This document shows, piece after piece, positions 969 through 10,509 of a stretch of DNA of 24,905 bases. Numbering within the stretch: the stretch's first letter is position 1; the number at the start of each line of letters is the position of its first letter. The stretch is from positions 1 through 24,905 of the IMG/VR virus record IMGVR_UViG_3300025132_000273. The stretch is one strand, 5' to 3'. The translations under genes were made by a program, and so were the position numbers. The notes below the pieces were generated by a model. That model worked only from the letters and a program-made list of their open reading frames with translations. It was not told where the DNA came from and did not search any database. Source of the DNA: a virus.

Positions 969-1043
969 ATGTTCGAATTAATTGTAGTTTTTTTATTAGG
1001 GTATATAGCTATTAAAATGAATAATAATGATATGAGGTTTTGA
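969..1043 (+). CDS. 24-aa hydrophobic micropeptide
   Basis: The ATG starts directly after the previous stop (TAA then ATG). The product is one hydrophobic segment, FELIVVFLLGYIAI, followed by a short polar Asn/Met/Arg tail, consistent with a single membrane-spanning peptide. Its TGA stop overlaps the next start (TGATG), the translational-coupling arrangement seen throughout this segment. It could be a real micropeptide or a leader that couples translation. No family recognised. Confidence 0.45.
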   Translation: MFELIVVFLLGYIAIKMNNNDMRF

Positions 1044-1192
1044 TGAATGAAATAATGCATTTTTTTAAACACGTGATAGGTTTCTGTGGTGAACACTCAC
1101 ATCCTAGTCTTTTACTTTCAGGAGGAGTATTGTTAACAGCTATGGGACTCTATTGGACAAAATTTATCAACTTTTTTAAGGATATGTTTTAA
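1043..1192 (+). CDS. 49-aa putative membrane protein
   Basis: Starts on an ATG overlapping the previous TGA and ends on a TAA whose last base is the A of the next ATG. A basic/His-containing N-terminus (HFFKHVIGF) is followed by a hydrophobic stretch SLLLSGGVLLTAMGLYW and a basic amphipathic tail FINFFKDMF. One transmembrane helix is likely. The tight coupling on both sides supports a translated gene. Function unknown; a small holin-like or membrane-remodelling role cannot be told from sequence. Confidence 0.55.
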   Translation: MNEIMHFFKHVIGFCGEHSHPSLLLSGGVLLTAMGLYWTKFINFFKDMF

Positions 1193-3389: not shown

Positions 3390-3833
3390 ATGAAATTCAA
3401 ATCAACTAAACGATTTGGGCCTATCACTACAGGTCATCGTCAATGGAAAGACAAAGGTCATTGTTCTTTCGTTCACGGATATGGAAGATATGTAAGACTA
3501 ACATTTGAAGCATCAGAACTTGATGAACGAGGTTGGGTTATGGACTTCGGTGATTTAAAAGATGTTAAGAAGTGGATTGAATCAGAGTGGGACCATAGAG
3601 TCCTGATTGCAGCTGATGACCCTTTACTATCTGATTTACAAGAACTAGAAAGTAAAGGTGGTATATATCTTAATGTACTTGATGATGGTTACTATCCTGG
3701 TATTGAAGAGTCCTGTCGTTATCTATATGACAAATTAAATCCAATGATAAAAGAAAAAACAAACAATCGTGTTGAGATTACACGAGTAGAAGTTTGGGAA
3801 CACGAAAACAATCACGCAGAATATGTCAGATAA
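3390..3833 (+). CDS. queD: 6-carboxytetrahydropterin synthase (QueD)
   Basis: Second step of 7-deazaguanine synthesis: converts dihydroneopterin triphosphate to 6-carboxy-5,6,7,8-tetrahydropterin. Catalytic residues are visible: C25 in HCSFVHGY, D68-H69 in the SEWDHR motif and E137 in RVEVWEHE. The GWVMDFGDLK strand-helix (48-57) is typical. The usual zinc triad is H-x(n)-H-x-H; here H16 and H29 are present, but the third position is Tyr (Y31, HGY instead of HGH). From memory the HGY form occurs in a marine/phage branch of QueD, so it may be a lineage trait rather than damage. First gene after the operator-controlled promoter; its stop overlaps the queE start by 11 bases. A second QueD-like protein lies at 5788. 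Confidence 0.9.
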   Translation: MKFKSTKRFGPITTGHRQWKDKGHCSFVHGYGRYVRLTFEASELDERGWVMDFGDLKDVKKWIESEWDHRVLIAADDPLLSDLQELESKGGIYLNVLDDGYYPGIEESCRYLYDKLNPMIKEKTNNRVEITRVEVWEHENNHAEYVR

Positions 3834-4569
3834 AAAATTACCAATAAATGAAATGTACACTTGTCTACAAGGTGAAGGTAAACTTCTAGGTATACCTCAC
3901 ATCCTGATTCGTGTAAGTGGTTGTAGATTACGTTGTCAGTTTGCTGACTCGTTTTGTGATACACCATATAGTTCTTGGAAACCCGAGAAAGGTATTTTTA
4001 CTTATCAAGATGTTCGAGAGTTTTATCAAAAAAATTCTCATATCAATCACACTATGATTACTGGTGGAGGTCCTACTTTGCATGCTAAAATGTTACAAGA
4101 GTTATGTAAGATAGGTAAAGAGTATTATCAAACCATCACAATAGAAACTGAAGGTAGTGAGTTTGTTTCTACTATGGCAGACTTAATTTCGTTATCTCCT
4201 AAGTTGTCAAATAGTACACCGAGACCTGGTACGATAATGTCTTATACAGGTAAAGTCGTTACTGAGGCTGATAAAAAGAAACACGAAAAGTGGCGTTGTA
4301 ATTATGAAGCTATGTCTCAACTTATCGAGAATCATCCTGATTATCAACTCAAACCAGTTATCTCAAGTGAAGAAGATTTAGAAGAAGTAAAAGAGTTACA
4401 AAGAATACTAGGTGTCCCTAATCATATGGTTTATCTAATGCCTGAAGGTCTCGAACGAAATCAACTAAATGAAAGACGAAAGTGGTTAACAGAACTTTGT
4501 GTACGTGAAGGTTACAACTTTACAGATAGATTACATATTATAACTTATGGAGATGAACGTGGGGTATGA
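3823..4569 (+). CDS. queE: 7-carboxy-7-deazaguanine synthase (QueE), variant cluster motif
   Basis: Radical SAM enzyme that contracts the pterin ring of carboxytetrahydropterin to 7-carboxy-7-deazaguanine. The N-terminal YTCLQGEGKLLGIPHILIRV pattern and the CDTPYSSW segment are QueE hallmarks. The [4Fe-4S] ligands read C34-x3-C38-x6-C45 rather than the usual C-x3-C-x2-C, a four-residue insertion in the cluster loop. The SAM-binding GGEP motif reads GGGP (81-84), losing the Glu. Length (248 aa) is normal to slightly long. Both changes sit in otherwise well-kept surroundings, so this looks like a functional phage variant. The start is inside the queD end; the ribosome binding site is weak, consistent with coupling. 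Confidence 0.9.
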   Translation: MSDKKLPINEMYTCLQGEGKLLGIPHILIRVSGCRLRCQFADSFCDTPYSSWKPEKGIFTYQDVREFYQKNSHINHTMITGGGPTLHAKMLQELCKIGKEYYQTITIETEGSEFVSTMADLISLSPKLSNSTPRPGTIMSYTGKVVTEADKKKHEKWRCNYEAMSQLIENHPDYQLKPVISSEEDLEEVKELQRILGVPNHMVYLMPEGLERNQLNERRKWLTELCVREGYNFTDRLHIITYGDERGV

Positions 4570-4780
4570 TTGGATAGGTTGGATAGGAACTGCTATGATT
4601 ATAGCAGGTTACTACTTCAACGCTAAAAAAATTAAAACTTGTTTTATTATTTGGGGATTAGGTAATGTAGCATTCTTGATATATGCTTATCTGATTGATG
4701 CACCACCTCAAATAGCTATAAGTGTCTTCGTAATTGGTATGAATGTTTTTGGATATAAACAATGGAGTAAAGATGAATAA
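4559..4780 (+). CDS. Three-helix membrane protein, SemiSWEET/PnuC-like
   Basis: About 73 residues with three hydrophobic helices: WIGWIGTAMIIAGYYF, CFIIWGLGNVAFLIYAYLI and IAISVFVIGMNVFGYKQW. Three-helix units with Trp/Gly/Asn-rich packing and a final GYKQW resemble half-transporters of the MtN3 clan (SemiSWEET, PnuC), which work as dimers or larger; I cannot confirm membership. Start choice: GGAG at 4549-4552 sits 6 bases before a GTG at 4559, the best-placed start. ATGs at 4547 and 4553 lie on or before that site and would add a few residues. It overlaps the queE end and is followed by folE at overlapping spacing. In this operon it may move a pathway base or precursor; that is inference. 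Confidence 0.65.
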   Translation: MGYDWIGWIGTAMIIAGYYFNAKKIKTCFIIWGLGNVAFLIYAYLIDAPPQIAISVFVIGMNVFGYKQWSKDE

Positions 4781-5405
4781 ACTAAAACACGCTAACGGAA
4801 ATCATCCGTTGACTGAACAAGAAAAACTTAAAATGATTGAACAAGCTGCTAAACACTACGGTGATTATATGTCAGCTCTTGGATTCGATTGGAGTGAAGA
4901 CCCTAACTCCTCTGAAACTCCTATCAGAGTGGCTAAAGCTTTTGTCAATGACTTGGCTTCAGGTGTGTATAGTGAACCTCCTAAGATTACAGCTTTCGAT
5001 AACGTCGATGGATATGATGGTATGGTCTTTCAAGGTAACATAACATTACATTCATTTTGTTCACATCATCATCTTCCCTTTATAGGACACGCTCACGTAG
5101 CGTATCTTCCTACTCCTGAGGGTAAAGTGATTGGACTAAGTAAGTTAAATCGTATTGTTGAGTTTTATGCTAGACGACCTCAAGTACAAGAGAACTTGAC
5201 AATGCAAGTACACGACCACATTCACGATGTATGTGAAGAAAACATTGGTGTTGCTGTATCTGTTGAGGCAGACCATATGTGTGCTTGTGTTCGTGGTGTC
5301 AAACATAATTCTACTATGAAGACATCTAAGTTGAGTGGTGAGTTTATGAACTACAAAAGTAATTCACGAGAAGAATTTTATAACTTTATAAGGGACTTGA
5401 AATGA
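4773..5405 (+). CDS. folE: GTP cyclohydrolase I (FolE)
   Basis: First step of the pathway: GTP to dihydroneopterin triphosphate plus formate. The zinc-site and catalytic segment SFCSHHHLPFIGHAHVAYLP (about residues 94-113) is intact, as are VIGLSKLNRIVEFYARRPQV and the distal CACVRGVKH segment (about 170-178) with the second zinc Cys and substrate-binding residues. The SETPIRVAKAFV motif is also typical. The start is set at ATG 4773, since GGAG (4764-4767) is 5 bases upstream; an in-frame ATG at 4743 lies inside the preceding gene and lacks a site. The 210-residue length is normal. Its TGA stop overlaps the next ATG. Phages that modify guanine often carry their own FolE to lift pterin flux. 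Confidence 0.96.
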   Translation: MNKLKHANGNHPLTEQEKLKMIEQAAKHYGDYMSALGFDWSEDPNSSETPIRVAKAFVNDLASGVYSEPPKITAFDNVDGYDGMVFQGNITLHSFCSHHHLPFIGHAHVAYLPTPEGKVIGLSKLNRIVEFYARRPQVQENLTMQVHDHIHDVCEENIGVAVSVEADHMCACVRGVKHNSTMKTSKLSGEFMNYKSNSREEFYNFIRDLK

Positions 5406-5791
5406 AAGAGTTTATAAGTTGGAATCTAATTGATGAAGCTGTTACTGATATAGCTTTTAATATTAAAAACACAAATAAAGATTTCAAAGGTGTTTATGGT
5501 ATACCTAGAGGCGGTTTGATATTGGCTGTAATGTTGAGTCATAAGTTAGATTTACCTTTGATAATGTCTAAAGATGAGTTAGATGAAAATAGTATCATCA
5601 TAGACGATATAGCAGATACTGGTAGAACATTATGGGATTTTCTTGAATATCAATCTTATGTTGTTACTATACACAAACACGAAAAAAGCATATTCAAACC
5701 TGATTATTCAGTTTTAGATAAAGGTGATAAGTGGATTGTCTATCCTTGGGAAACTGAAGACTCAGAAGAAATACAGGATTATTTAAAATGA
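5402..5791 (+). CDS. Type I phosphoribosyltransferase
   Basis: Transfers ribose-5-phosphate from PRPP to a base. The PRPP-binding motif IIIDDIADTGRT (65-76) is textbook, with the preceding VYGIPRGGLILA loop (31-42) supplying the other conserved phosphate contacts. At 129 residues it is a minimal purine-type enzyme, closest in appearance to guanine/xanthine phosphoribosyltransferases. Base specificity cannot be read from sequence. It is embedded between folE and the QueD paralogue with ATGA overlaps on both sides. A plausible job is recapture of the guanine that DpdA ejects, giving GMP and so GTP for FolE. Alternatively it could activate a deazaguanine base. Confidence 0.85.
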   Translation: MKEFISWNLIDEAVTDIAFNIKNTNKDFKGVYGIPRGGLILAVMLSHKLDLPLIMSKDELDENSIIIDDIADTGRTLWDFLEYQSYVVTIHKHEKSIFKPDYSVLDKGDKWIVYPWETEDSEEIQDYLK

Positions 5792-6135
5792 AAACAAATA
5801 TAATATGTAGATTACAAGTTGAAGGACTACACTGGTGGTCTGAAGCTAGTAAGTATGAACCCACAATGGTGTATCTTGAATCACCACATAGGCATATGTT
5901 TCACGTTGAAGTCAAAAAAGAAGTTTTTCACGATGACCGAGATGTTGAGTTTATTGTGTTTAAAAGAAAAGTCAAAAAGTATTTAGAAGAAAAATATTAT
6001 GATGAACAATATGATTTGTGTAACTTCAAAGCAAGGTCTTGTGAAATGTTAGCTAAAGAATTACTCGAAGAATTTGATTTAGTGTATTGTTCAGTATTTG
6101 AAGATAACGAGAATGGAGCAGAAATATATGGGTAA
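5788..6135 (+). CDS. Divergent QueD/PTPS-fold protein
   Basis: Short (115 aa) member of the 6-pyruvoyl-tetrahydropterin-synthase fold. The zinc triad is intact: H15 in VEGLHWW and H34-x-H36 in SPHRHMFHVEV, and the late strand Glu is kept (E105, SVFEDNENGAEIYG). The nucleophile Cys expected four residues before the first His of HxH is absent (L30), and the catalytic Asp-His pair is not found. It should therefore bind zinc and perhaps a pterin or deazaguanine, but not do normal QueD chemistry. It could be a tailoring enzyme (for instance acting on the carboxyl of CDG) or a partner subunit for the QueD at 3390. Its start overlaps the preceding stop and its end overlaps the next gene by 8 bases. 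Confidence 0.75.
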   Translation: MKTNIICRLQVEGLHWWSEASKYEPTMVYLESPHRHMFHVEVKKEVFHDDRDVEFIVFKRKVKKYLEEKYYDEQYDLCNFKARSCEMLAKELLEEFDLVYCSVFEDNENGAEIYG

Positions 6136-7108
6136 AATAATTTACTTACCTCTTGAACATATTGAGTCAAGATACACAACTCATATGGACAGAGATATAT
6201 CAAACTATCTTGATAACTTAGATAGAGAATGTATCAAAGTTTATCCTGATATTCCCGTTCCTACAAGTATGAAAGCAGGAAGTTTTCTTGATGCTGAGTT
6301 TACAATCAGATTCAAAGCAGCTCAGATTGAAGAAGTGGCTAGATTATATCGGGAAGATGTAATTGACTCAGGTGATATTATTTGGAGTTCTGATTTATGG
6401 CATCCAGGACTTCCCGAAAGTATAGCTTATATGAATTACTTTGCTAAGAAAGATGTAAAGTTAAGAGGACTTATTCACGCGGGTAGTTTTACTGATACTG
6501 ATTTTGTGAGAGATATGGAACGATGGGCTAAAAACTTTGAAGATACTTTGTTTGATATTGCTGATGAAATTTATTGTGGTAGTGATTTTATAAAAAATGA
6601 TATTATAAAAAAACGAATGATAAATCCTGACAAGTTAGTTGTAACTGGATTTCCTTTAGATACAGAAAATCTTGATAAAGTTGAAAAGAAACCTAAAGAA
6701 GATATAGTAGTATTCTCAGGTAGAAACGTAGATGAAAAACAACCTTGGTTATTCAAACAAATGGAAGATAGATTAGGTGATGTTATAGGTAGTACTCAGT
6801 TCATCAATACTCTTGAACATAACTTTTCAAAAGATGAGTATTATGATTTGTTGAGTAGAGCTAAAGTTGTAGTAAGTTTTGCTTTACAAGAAAACTTTGG
6901 ATTCAGTATTGCCGAAGCTGTTTATCTAGGTTGTGTTCCTGTTGTTCCTAACAGATTGGTTTATCCTGAGTTTTATGGTGAACAATATTTGTATGATACT
7001 TTTGATACTGCTTGTAATAAAGTTAATATGGCTCTGAAAGGTAACTTATTAGCTCCATTACACGGTAGAGATTATCAAGAAGCTATAGAAAGGTGGTTCC
7101 GTGATTAA
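6128..7108 (+). CDS. GT4-type glycosyltransferase, queuosine mannosyltransferase-like
   Basis: GT-B-fold transferase of about 326 residues. The C-terminal donor domain begins near VVFSGRNVDEKQPWLF and carries the EX7E motif (E255-E263, QENFGFSIAEAVYLG), followed by CVPVVPNRLVYPEFYGEQYL. That last segment strongly recalls, from memory, the equivalent part of the GTDC1/QTMAN family that mannosylates queuosine in tRNA. The N-terminal half has IIWSSDLWHPG and FDIADEIYCGSDFIKNDI, the acceptor-domain pattern of GT4 enzymes. Start set at ATG 6128 because GGAG (6115-6118) is 9 bases upstream; an in-frame ATG at 6098 lies inside the previous gene. It sits directly before dpdA with an 8-base overlap, so its acceptor may be a deazaguanine in DNA or tRNA. 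The family is sure; the acceptor is inference. Confidence 0.85.
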   Translation: MGKIIYLPLEHIESRYTTHMDRDISNYLDNLDRECIKVYPDIPVPTSMKAGSFLDAEFTIRFKAAQIEEVARLYREDVIDSGDIIWSSDLWHPGLPESIAYMNYFAKKDVKLRGLIHAGSFTDTDFVRDMERWAKNFEDTLFDIADEIYCGSDFIKNDIIKKRMINPDKLVVTGFPLDTENLDKVEKKPKEDIVVFSGRNVDEKQPWLFKQMEDRLGDVIGSTQFINTLEHNFSKDEYYDLLSRAKVVVSFALQENFGFSIAEAVYLGCVPVVPNRLVYPEFYGEQYLYDTFDTACNKVNMALKGNLLAPLHGRDYQEAIERWFRD

Positions 7109-8303
7109 AACTAATTTTATTTATTTTCCTTCATTCTCAGCAGGTGAGATGGGTTCTAACTTTGTAAAAGACCATCGTTTTAGAAATGATATGACGATAC
7201 GATTTTATAGTGAAGAATATCCTGAAGAGTTTCAACACAATCAATTATTGATTACAGCTGGAGCGCATATGTCAGTAAAAGATTACAGAAACAAAATGGG
7301 ACTTACTGATAGAAATCTTGTTATGGGTGATTCAGGAGGATTTCAGTTCGCTTCTGGAGCTCTCAAATGGGACTTAAAATACAGAGATAAAATCTTTAAC
7401 TGGTTATCAGAAAATACTGATGTGGCTATGAACTTAGATTTACCTCCTCGTTTGAAGAATGAAGGTAAGTTTCACGAATGTTTAGATGTTAGTATTGACA
7501 ATTTTAAATACTTTCAATCAAAACAAGATGGTTCTACAAAGTTCTTAAACGTAGTACAAGGTGATGACGAACATACTTACAAACACTGGTACGACCAAGT
7601 CAAAGATTTTGATTTCAATGGTTGGGGTATCGGAGGTGCTGGTGGTAGTCTTTATCGTTTTATGTCAGGTGTCCATGCTCTATTACAAGGTAAAGAACAC
7701 TTGAATCCTCGTAATGAATACTTTCACATTCTTGGTACTTCTAAAATCAGAGACTTCTTGATGTTAATTCAATTACAGAAATCACTTGAGGATATTGGTT
7801 CCAATATTGTTGTAACGACTGATAGTTCGTCTCCTGACAGAGCTGTCGTTTTTGGTACATATTACACACGATTTAGTATAAAGAAAGCCACATTTGAATC
7901 AATCAACTTTCCAAGTGAAAAACATAATCCTGACATTATAGAGTGGTTTAGAGAAACACCTAATCAAGATTGGCCTCGTATGACTGCTTTTGATGATGTA
8001 CTTAGAGGACTTGTTTCTTGGAAAGATGTAGCTGACTGGAACACTCAATGTACTATGGGAATGAGATTACATAACTTCTATGTGTTTAAAGATGCTATCA
8101 GAAATGTAACTGAACTAATTTATGGACACGATTATATATTGAAACAAGCAGTAGATAGTGAAGTATATAAAGTATTGAGGTCCATTGATGATATGGTCAA
8201 GAGTGAAGACCCCTCAAGAGTATTCGAATCATATAAACAACTTTATATGAAAATGAGTAATACTAAAAAACAACCTACAAATTCAACACACAATTTCTTT
8301 TAA
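7101..8303 (+). CDS. dpdA: DpdA-like 7-deazaguanine DNA transglycosylase
   Basis: TGT-family base-exchange enzyme. The catalytic TIM barrel shows LVMGDSGGFQFASG (about 72-85; base-recognition Asp at about 77), AMNLDLPPR, LNVVQGDD, FNGWGIGGAGGS (about 172-183), YFHILGTSK and VVTTDSSSPDRAV (about 237-249), whose Asp is the likely nucleophile. The C-terminal region has NTQCTMGMRLHNFYVFKD, but the full TGT zinc set (CxCx2C...H) is not seen: only one Cys and one His remain, unlike tRNA-TGT. With the folE-queD-queE genes upstream it is best read as the enzyme that swaps guanine in phage DNA for a deazaguanine. It starts with GTG at 7101, 4 bases after AAGGTGG. A tRNA substrate cannot be excluded. 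Confidence 0.87.
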   Translation: MIKTNFIYFPSFSAGEMGSNFVKDHRFRNDMTIRFYSEEYPEEFQHNQLLITAGAHMSVKDYRNKMGLTDRNLVMGDSGGFQFASGALKWDLKYRDKIFNWLSENTDVAMNLDLPPRLKNEGKFHECLDVSIDNFKYFQSKQDGSTKFLNVVQGDDEHTYKHWYDQVKDFDFNGWGIGGAGGSLYRFMSGVHALLQGKEHLNPRNEYFHILGTSKIRDFLMLIQLQKSLEDIGSNIVVTTDSSSPDRAVVFGTYYTRFSIKKATFESINFPSEKHNPDIIEWFRETPNQDWPRMTAFDDVLRGLVSWKDVADWNTQCTMGMRLHNFYVFKDAIRNVTELIYGHDYILKQAVDSEVYKVLRSIDDMVKSEDPSRVFESYKQLYMKMSNTKKQPTNSTHNFF

Positions 8304-9131: not shown

Positions 9132-9391
9132 TGATAATAGAAATAGTATTAGGATTATTAGTCGTTATCGAGGGATATGTTATTTGGAACTTATTTAGAA
9201 AAACAGAATTTCTCGAAACTTGGGTAGAAGATTTTACACAAGTAATACAACAAGTAGATACAGATTTAAAAGAAATTGATTCAACAGGACATTTTGAATC
9301 TGATGATGAAATTGGTAGTATATTTGAGGCTATCAAAGATACCGTAAAACAATTAGAAACCTTCAAAGGAGAAGATGTAAATGCCAGCTAA
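9131..9391 (+). CDS. 86-aa N-terminally anchored membrane protein
   Basis: Residues 2-21 form one transmembrane helix (IIEIVLGLLVVIEGYVIWNLF). The rest is an acidic helical cytoplasmic tail with heptad-like spacing (ETWVEDFTQVIQQVDTDLKEID...). GGAG lies 7 bases before the ATG, which overlaps the HD gene stop. Its own stop overlaps the next gene by 11 bases. Proteins of this layout sit next to the late sigma factor in other aquatic T4-like phages as far as I recall; no function is known. Confidence 0.65.
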   Translation: MIIEIVLGLLVVIEGYVIWNLFRKTEFLETWVEDFTQVIQQVDTDLKEIDSTGHFESDDEIGSIFEAIKDTVKQLETFKGEDVNAS

Positions 9392-10112
9392 AGTTGTTAA
9401 GAAAAAAAGACGTAAAAAAAGTAAAGTATATTTTGGAACACCAGTACAAAATGCTATCATTAGGTACAATGAATGTTCAAGTCCCATAATACGAAATAGA
9501 ATTTATCGTGAACATATAGCTGCTGCTTTTGATAAATTAGCTGAAAACTTAATTCACACATTTAAGTTTTACTATTTTGATTATCCTTTTGAAGAAGTTA
9601 AACACGAAGTAGTATCTTTTTTAGTGATGCAGATGCCTAAATATAAAGCTGACAAAGGAAGAGCTTTCTCATATTTTTCTGTAATTGGTAAAAATTATTT
9701 GATTCTAAATAATAATAATAATTACAAAAAAATGAAAACACACGATGAAGTCAAAGTATTAGATTTCAAACGTAATGTTCTGAGTGAGTCTATACAAGAG
9801 GAAGCTGATGAATTTAACGTTCAGTTTGTAGACCAGATGTTAGAGTATTGGGACAATAATATTACTAATATCTTTCGTAGACAAAAAGATATTCTTGTAG
9901 CTGATGCTGTATTAGAATTGTTTAGACGTAGAAAAAATATCGAGAACTTCAACAAAAAAGCTCTTTATATTATGATTCGTGAAATGACAGGTTCTAATAC
10001 TCAACATATTACACGAGTGATAAATCAAATGAAACGTTATTACTTCAATATGATGGAGGAGTTTTCTGCAGTAGGTGAGATTGATACCTCTAATACTGGT
10101 TCGATATTTTAA
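9381..10112 (+). CDS. Late-transcription sigma factor (gp55-like)
   Basis: Reprograms host RNA polymerase to phage late promoters. After a very basic start (KVVKKKRRKKSK) comes the region-2-like core: YFGTPVQNAIIRYN, IAAAFDKLAENLIHTFKFYYFDYPFEEVKHEVVSFL and KGRAFSYFSVIGKNYLILNNNNNYKK (about residues 13-115), the recognisable signature of gp55-like sigma factors in T4-like phages. No region 4 is seen, as in gp55, so a sliding-clamp or co-activator partner is expected elsewhere in the genome. The presence of exact TATAAATA late boxes in this window agrees with it. A GGAG site is about 11 bases upstream. The stop is 5 bases before the UCA tRNA. Confidence 0.85.
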   Translation: MPAKVVKKKRRKKSKVYFGTPVQNAIIRYNECSSPIIRNRIYREHIAAAFDKLAENLIHTFKFYYFDYPFEEVKHEVVSFLVMQMPKYKADKGRAFSYFSVIGKNYLILNNNNNYKKMKTHDEVKVLDFKRNVLSESIQEEADEFNVQFVDQMLEYWDNNITNIFRRQKDILVADAVLELFRRRKNIENFNKKALYIMIREMTGSNTQHITRVINQMKRYYFNMMEEFSAVGEIDTSNTGSIF

Positions 10113-10117
10113 TTTAT

Positions 10118-10210
10118 GGCGACGATTGAGTAGCTGGTGCTCTCCTCGGTCTTCAACACCGTAGTGTAGTAGTTGATACTACAGGTAGGTTCGATTCCTA
10201 TCCGTCGCCG
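10118..10210 (+). tRNA. tRNA-UCA with selenocysteine-tRNA architecture
   Basis: A 93-base tRNA whose anticodon loop CTTCAAC (10151-10157), closed by CGGT/ACCG, gives UCA, the complement of UGA. Acceptor GGCGACG (10118-10124) pairs with CGTCGCC (10203-10209), with discriminator G10210. The 3' strand from T-loop to discriminator has 13 bases, as in bacterial tRNA-Sec (8+5); the eighth pair is either A10125-C10202 (mismatch) or G10184-C10202 extending the T-stem. The D-arm reads as a 6-bp stem (GAG, AGC with GCT, CTC; one bulged T10131) around a 4-base TGGT loop. The variable arm is long with 7 bp (10165-10171 with 10177-10183). U8 and A14 of ordinary tRNAs are missing. These are bacterial SelC features. 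It could charge serine and act as a UGA suppressor or Sec tRNA. CCA is not encoded. Confidence 0.82.
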
Positions 10211-10217
10211 CTAACAA

Positions 10218-10245
10218 AAAAAGGGAAGCCGAAACTTCCCTTTTT
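10218..10245. terminator. Bidirectional intrinsic terminator
   Basis: AAAAAGGGAAG (10218-10228) and CTTCCCTTTTT (10235-10245) pair perfectly around CCGAAA, giving a stem with an A tract before and a U tract after. It ends the plus-strand operon after the UCA tRNA and, read on the minus strand, also ends the 73-aa gene coming the other way. Confidence 0.88.
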
Positions 10246-10287: not shown

Positions 10288-10509
10288 CTACTTTCGAAAT
10301 AAACCCACCAACACCAACAAGGCGACGAGCCCGGCGAAACCCGATTCGCCAAACTTGTTTATGATGGATGTTAGGTTACCAATAACATTGACACCAAAGA
10401 TACCACTTCCAAAGATAACTTCAGATATAGCACCTATGGTTACAAAAGATAACAATAGATGAGCTAAGTCATCAATGTATCCTTTGACCGTTGTTACGAT
10501 TTCCTTCAT
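10288..10509 (-). CDS. 73-aa two-helix membrane protein, minus strand
   Basis: The only convincing minus-strand gene. Two hydrophobic helices are seen (LAHLLLSFVTIGAISEVIFG and FAGLVALLVLVGLF) joined by a Gly/Asn-rich loop, with a short basic C-terminus. Size and topology would suit a small holin or a membrane-bound virion or assembly protein; no family is certain, though similar proteins occur in aquatic T4-like phages as far as I recall. GGGAG sits 6 bases before the ATG. The 5' half of the plus-strand view (about 10318-10352) is richer in G+C than the surroundings. It faces the deazaguanine/sigma operon and shares its terminator. Two late-promoter boxes lie 105-145 bases upstream. Confidence 0.8.
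   Translation of the reverse strand: MKEIVTTVKGYIDDLAHLLLSFVTIGAISEVIFGSGIFGVNVIGNLTSIINKFGESGFAGLVALLVLVGLFRK

Follow-up and report, generated by a model that had tools for sequence, protein, structure and literature searches.

The window, a virus record analyzed over its entire 24,905 bases, carries a genuine bacterial-type tRNA-Sec. The gene was probably acquired from a Marinimicrobia-type host: with a probability of roughly 0.6, it is a bona fide tRNA-Sec taken up from such a host that would serve as SelC with the host's SerRS, SelA and SelB, sustaining selenoprotein synthesis during infection.

Identity and anatomy of the tRNA gene

ARAGORN called tRNA-SeC(tca) at 10118-10211, and Rfam model RF01852 matched 10118-10209 with 65.4 bits (E 1.8e-11), above its gathering score of 47 and at the top of its clan there. 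The interval 10118-10210 given by the initial annotation is correct. The other RF01852 matches in the record were 2 ordinary tRNAs under the cut-off (28.8 and 23.1 bits). The cloverleaf is the minimum-energy fold of the gene (-37.3 kcal/mol, z -4.23), which was equaled by 0/200 shuffles. The features of the tRNA and its surroundings are listed in the table.

The UCA loop, the discriminator G (10210), the 13-nt 3' side of the acceptor and T arms and the 22-nt variable region were all described accurately in the initial annotation. Three details of that description were corrected: the D-stem contains a bulged U, acceptor layer 8 is mismatched, and the anticodon stem begins with U.U at its foot. 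The layer 8 mismatch is A.C in the window and A.C or U.C in 9/9 distinct phage sequences. The acceptor/T arm thus consists of 7 pairs, 1 mismatch and 5 pairs; its 13 layers equal the 8-bp acceptor plus 5-bp T stem of bacterial tRNA-Sec in number, with layer 8 unpaired. The bases directly 3' of the gene are GCTA, so CCA is not encoded.

Covariance models were used to compare the gene with tRNA-Ser. The Sec model was built from 23 genes outside this phage group (19 of the Marinimicrobia phylum and 4 of other virus-collection loci), and the Ser model from 32 genes (24 virus loci and 8 Marinimicrobia-phylum genomes). The window tRNA scored 90.9 bits with the Sec model vs 39.5 with the Ser model. 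Conversely, two true tRNA-Ser, both members of the Ser training set, scored 84.4 and 92.4 bits with the Ser model and 44.0 and 45.7 with the Sec model. A Sec score below that of tRNA-Ser, or relatives lacking a 7-base UCA loop, had been named as grounds for rejecting the gene; the scores were the reverse, and the loop is kept among relatives. Phage origin and the tRNA-Sec layout are borne out by these scores and by compensatory changes among the relatives.

Features of the tRNA slot (window coordinates)
Feature	Position	Strand	Basis
Conserved 243-aa protein gene, slot marker, ends 5 nt before tRNA	9381..10112	+	Relatives; no family match
tRNA-Sec gene (SelC), anticodon UCA, discriminator G, CCA not encoded	10118..10210	+	ARAGORN, RF01852, Sec model, fold
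Acceptor stem 5' strand, pairs with 10203-10209	10118..10124	+	2/7 pairs with both-side changes among phages
D arm, 6 bp: 10128-10134 (bulged U 10131) / 10139-10144, 4-nt UGGU loop	10128..10144	+	3/6 pairs with both-side changes
Anticodon loop CUUCAAC (7 nt), UCA at 10153-10155	10151..10157	+	ARAGORN; CTTCAA invariant, 9/9 phage sequences
Variable arm, 7-bp stem (variable region 22 nt)	10165..10183	+	Covariation, fold
T arm, 5 bp; outermost G.U invariant, 9/9 phage sequences	10185..10201	+	Alignment
Terminator-like hairpin GGGAAG CCGAAA CTTCCC TTTTT, 3' of tRNA	10218..10245	+	Read from sequence; absent from terminator scan list

Carriers, conservation and the tRNA slot

The tRNA-Sec was found in 20 records of the phage group, the window and 19 contigs (ARAGORN) from 17 metagenome ids. 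The 19 contigs were drawn from 69 stretches matching a tight tRNA pattern, which was used because a looser pattern scan was too unspecific; a scan for the TTTCAA variant returned 8 stretches. Each of the other carriers (19/19) also has one or more of the window genes that adjoin the slot. The carriers are T4-like phages from metagenomes. The window encodes baseplate wedge proteins, a tmRNA and three other tRNAs, and the best phage-collection matches of one baseplate protein were a Microcystis phage (44.8%), an uncultured phage (41.5%) and Flavobacterium phages (40.6%). By reading, the Sec+ phage fragments contain mostly structural, tail and modification genes. Since tRNA-Sec was above the cut-off in 0/40 other relative records, no near-complete Sec+ genome was found. 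An extension beyond the left end of the 51-kb record G001 held terminase- and portal-like genes by reading and nothing related to Sec.

Pairing was examined in a MAFFT alignment of the 9 distinct phage tRNA-Sec sequences (30 pairs). Both-side changes occur at 9/30 pairs, a count reached by 0/500 shuffles, and 96.3% of pair cells are paired. Covariation was 0.239 vs 0.131 in shuffles (0/500 as high), and sliding the partner columns by 1-3 lowered pairing to 36-60%. One of five covariation measures was flat (further pair types 14 vs 14.8, 457/500 shuffles as high). The variable arm of L142 is 1 base shorter and MAFFT placed the gap inside the stem, so that some L142 pairs were scored as unpaired. 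All 9 sequences share CUUCAA and the G discriminator. Because both-side changes exceed those of 500 shuffles, the alignment shows the phage tRNA-Sec to be a functional RNA with pairing under selection rather than a decaying one. In a tRNA tree the 9 sequences form one side of a branch with support of 89/99, a value from few columns for which the bootstrap had not settled; the same tree did not settle where these sequences branch relative to cellular genes.

Candidate stretches from one scan included 347 relatives of the 243-aa slot gene, whose product matched nothing in Pfam, PHROGs, NCBIfam or PDB sequences. Of 80 relatives, 15 had tRNA-Sec in the slot, 42 had only other tRNAs there, and in 23 ARAGORN called none; tRNAs for Ala, Glu, Thr and Sec replace one another in it. 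A hairpin similar to that 3' of the tRNA lies 3' of the slot gene in many tRNA-less relatives. A slot-gene tree was built from 80 proteins (63 distinct rows, window included), leaving out L142 and L146, whose slot gene was unmatched, and L186, with 77 residues only. The presence of tRNA-Sec on this tree is patchy, many relatives being without it, and needs 5 changes, 4 of them forced by well supported branches. Because the tRNAs form one group while presence changes several times, the trees suggest that tRNA-Sec was probably gained once and later lost or passed on several times.

Several other features of the window were observed. Relatives of QueD, QueE and FolE, under NCBIfam cut-offs, are grouped at 3390-8303 together with a 400-aa protein that matches TGT weakly (E 6e-4 in Pfam, under the cut-off). 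The group may represent a DpdA-like cluster for 7-deazaguanine modification of DNA. A peptide deformylase with a fused C-terminal SEC-C motif is encoded at 1457-2041. On the 3' side of the slot, a membrane-like 73-aa ORF (10288-10509, minus strand) is conserved in relatives and has no family match; in one antisense frame of it a UGA is kept in 91/91 counted matches.

Relation to Marinimicrobia selC and the probable host

The exact tRNA pattern was found in 1 contig only among genomes of 84,980 species, that of Candidatus Marinimicrobia UBA1611, where the surroundings of selC read as chromosomal genes. A tRNA-Sec model built from the phage sequences matched 134/245 Marinimicrobia-phylum genomes at E <= 1e-8 (best 92.6 bits). 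RF01852 scored above its cut-off in 127/199 genomes of the phylum, some of the matches near the cut-off being tRNA-Ser, and SelA was above the cut-off in 175/245, G025 and G284 included. The nearest Marinimicrobia selC genes (L457, L470) are identical to the window tRNA in 72/96 columns, and 22 consecutive bases around the D arm (10124-10145) are identical in L457. In the acceptor stem, 3/7 pairs are changed relative to the closest host genes, with pairing kept. Of all relatives found, selC of Candidatus Marinimicrobia is the closest.

Other host hints were sought in the proteins and the tmRNA. A G001 protein with no Pfam name has homologues in 204/244 Marinimicrobia-phylum genomes, the only phylum in which it was sought; the top-scoring homologues come from small genomes (0.4-1 Mb), and in several of these SelA matched only weakly or not at all. 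The tag encoded by the window tmRNA (2326-2734), ENDGDWNNPPISNYEPTYAYAA, is long and differs from the short ones of six Marinimicrobia tmRNAs (five ADYGYMAAA, one ADNGYMAAA). The G001 proteins that look secreted or outer-membrane-like all lacked a Pfam name. A curli-like gene was dropped as a host hint, since pelagimyophages carry curli genes too according to the part of PMC7029224 consulted. The sequence comparisons point to a Marinimicrobia-type host as probable, though not proven.

Possible functions and comparison with known systems

Phage tRNAs are usually explained by codon usage. Because tRNA-Sec serves few UGA codons, and those via SelA/SelB only, codon-usage compensation hardly explains its retention. 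We favor a single uptake by the T4-like phage group from a Marinimicrobia-type host, after which the gene would have been kept in the changeable tRNA slot. The tRNA would be transcribed with the upstream 243-aa gene and receive its CCA from an enzyme. Host SerRS would charge it with serine, host SelA would convert the seryl form to Sec-tRNA, and host SelB would deliver this at SECIS-marked UGA codons. When an infected cell loses or dilutes its own tRNA, phage SelC may in this way maintain selenoprotein synthesis, a role comparable to the one proposed for other phage tRNAs at ordinary codons. The proteins to benefit would be selenoproteins of the host, or one that the phage encodes outside the sequenced fragments.

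The initial annotation had suggested three uses: supplying selenocysteine to phage proteins, competing with host SelC, and inserting serine at UGA. It had also proposed searching the phage for SelA and SelB, and neither was found in the Sec+ records, all of them fragments (0/20 each). No selenoprotein candidate was present in the window or in G001. A conservation scan for UGA-crossing frames covered 221 phage-group loci (2.87 Mb, overlapping). Its frames were at first mostly antisense, and removing those overlapping standard ORFs left 203, of which 0 were selenoprotein-like in a scan run without a known-selenoprotein positive control and on Sec+ genomes sampled as fragments. By reading, the 203 comprise antisense or sense frames crossing tRNAs, the tmRNA or small ORFs, frames that run from the end of one gene into the next, and intergenic matches. 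Cysteine occupied the UGA position in at least half of the matches in 8/203 frames; the strongest such row (L253/L255, 12/12) reads as the antisense of a homologue of the small ORF at window 1040-1192. Supply to phage selenoproteins therefore found no candidate in the fragments scanned. A further possibility, to which we give distinctly less weight than to the reading favored above, is that the phage itself encodes selenoproteins, such as a UGA- and SECIS-containing redox protein, served by phage SelC with host SelA and SelB. It would account for a tRNA-Sec kept under selection, and the structural, tail and modification genes that dominate the Sec+ fragments leave the rest of the genome largely unseen; against it stands the lack of candidates in the window, G001 and the 203 frames.

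The UCA anticodon would also suit suppression of UGA, by insertion of serine or some other residue or by readthrough of phage stops. Stop codon use was therefore compared in ORFs of at least 100 aa chosen by length, from loci that overlap. UGA ended 23/158 genes in five Sec+ sets (3/23, 9/46, 3/27, 1/16, 7/46) and 73/435 in two near Sec- sets (63/368, 10/67). Three distant relatives without tRNA-Sec above the cut-off (G228, G229, G231) had 28/96, 36/97 and 16/60 UGA stops (80/253, 27-37%), about twice the share of the window's group, and the share was raised too in the subset of these genes for which G001 or the window has a homologue (9/30). Because UGA stops are as scarce in the near Sec- relatives as in the Sec+ phages, this difference follows phage type and not the tRNA. 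UGA stops being as frequent as in Sec-less near relatives, the tRNA is not a general UGA suppressor. No UGA was found inside conserved genes of the window or G001, which show no sign of general UGA recoding, and the Sec-specific layout is retained. Some UCA tRNAs that ARAGORN calls SeC do occur in such a setting (L157 3029-3123, L179 6071-6163, L122 413-512); since UGA lies inside conserved-looking frames of these contigs, they are probably UGA-recoded phages rather than tRNA-Sec carriers. For the window tRNA, suppression is thus disfavored and in our judgment highly improbable.

Attachment sites offer a different origin, in which the gene would be a leftover or copy from integration into host selC. 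Genes resembling selC do adjoin integrases elsewhere: the annotated 'tRNA-Sec' of phage Pf8 (MN710383) adjoins an integrase at the record end, as an att-site copy would, and selC-like genes adjoin integrases in L133 and L160. Two further loci have tRNA-Sec above the cut-off, L125 (in a tRNA array) and L132, and no integrase was among the neighbors scanned (0/6 and 0/4 proteins, respectively). In the window an integrase was found in 0/24 proteins scanned, the gene is full length, its acceptor departs from the closest host genes while remaining paired, and the slot exchanges tRNAs of four kinds; an attachment-site origin is accordingly the hardest of the explanations to credit. Phage tRNAs can counter tRNA-cutting defenses, and a replacement for tRNA-Sec destroyed by a host defense nuclease, or a decoy, would fit the patchy distribution as an arms race. 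We know of no nuclease specific for tRNA-Sec, and this explanation is very unlikely. Supplementing host SelC, rather than competing with it, seems the likeliest of the uses considered.

A selected phage SelC would make viral dependence on, or upkeep of, host selenoproteins during infection a testable matter, and it would provide a tRNA-based host link for uncultured phages. If the phages encode a selenoprotein of their own, they would be selenocysteine users, with a selenoprotein pathway that employs a phage-encoded tRNA-Sec.

The gene also provides a standard for checking earlier annotations. In the passages available, tRNA-Sec is claimed for Basilisk-like Bacillus phages as 'the first example', of unknown significance (PMC6145125), for Salmonella phage SSBI34 (PMC8879037) and for mycobacteriophage cluster C arrays (PMC5966550). 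The full SSBI34 record had no RF01852 match above the cut-off; its best match scored 35.5 bits and is tRNA-Ser by ARAGORN, so that this claim fails the Rfam model. No report of a phage tRNA-Sec backed by covariation among relatives, or tied to Marinimicrobia, was found in the literature searched, part of it in the form of passages.

Further tRNA-Sec matches were seen outside the phage group. L132 194-284 (record G003, 113 kb) scored 69.4 bits near a peptide deformylase. L166 8121-8213 scored 76.5 bits in record G002 (532,729 bases), a huge phage or bacterial contig that also encodes FolD and ClpX; a SelB match there (148.7 bits, under the cut-off, 396-aa frame) was rejected as probably EF-Tu. 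The selC of L174 recurs unchanged in two records named as Campylobacter phages (MG065686.1, MG065691.1), possibly through contamination or mislabelling, since records of an Escherichia phage and of Salmonella match it fully too.

In an autonomous selenocysteine system SelA and SelB are encoded along with the tRNA, whereas the phage fragments are without both. The tRNA sets of T4-like phages are alike in occupying a compact slot next to a conserved gene, where individual tRNAs come and go, but the phage tRNA-Sec differs from them in requiring a dedicated SelA/SelB pathway that is not in the phage fragments. Its molecular anatomy is that of Marinimicrobia selC (L278/L474, L457): both have UCA in a CUUCAA loop, a G discriminator, a long D-stem with a 4-nt loop and one bulged base, a long variable arm, and a 13-layer acceptor/T arm mismatched at layer 8. 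CCA is not encoded in the phage tRNA, nor in several of the closest Marinimicrobia selC genes. Unlike the closest Marinimicrobia genes read, the phage tRNA has an invariant G.U at the outer T pair, reminiscent of a pair in E. coli tRNA-Sec that contributes to the rejection of EF-Tu, and unlike Marinimicrobia selC it sits in a phage tRNA slot.
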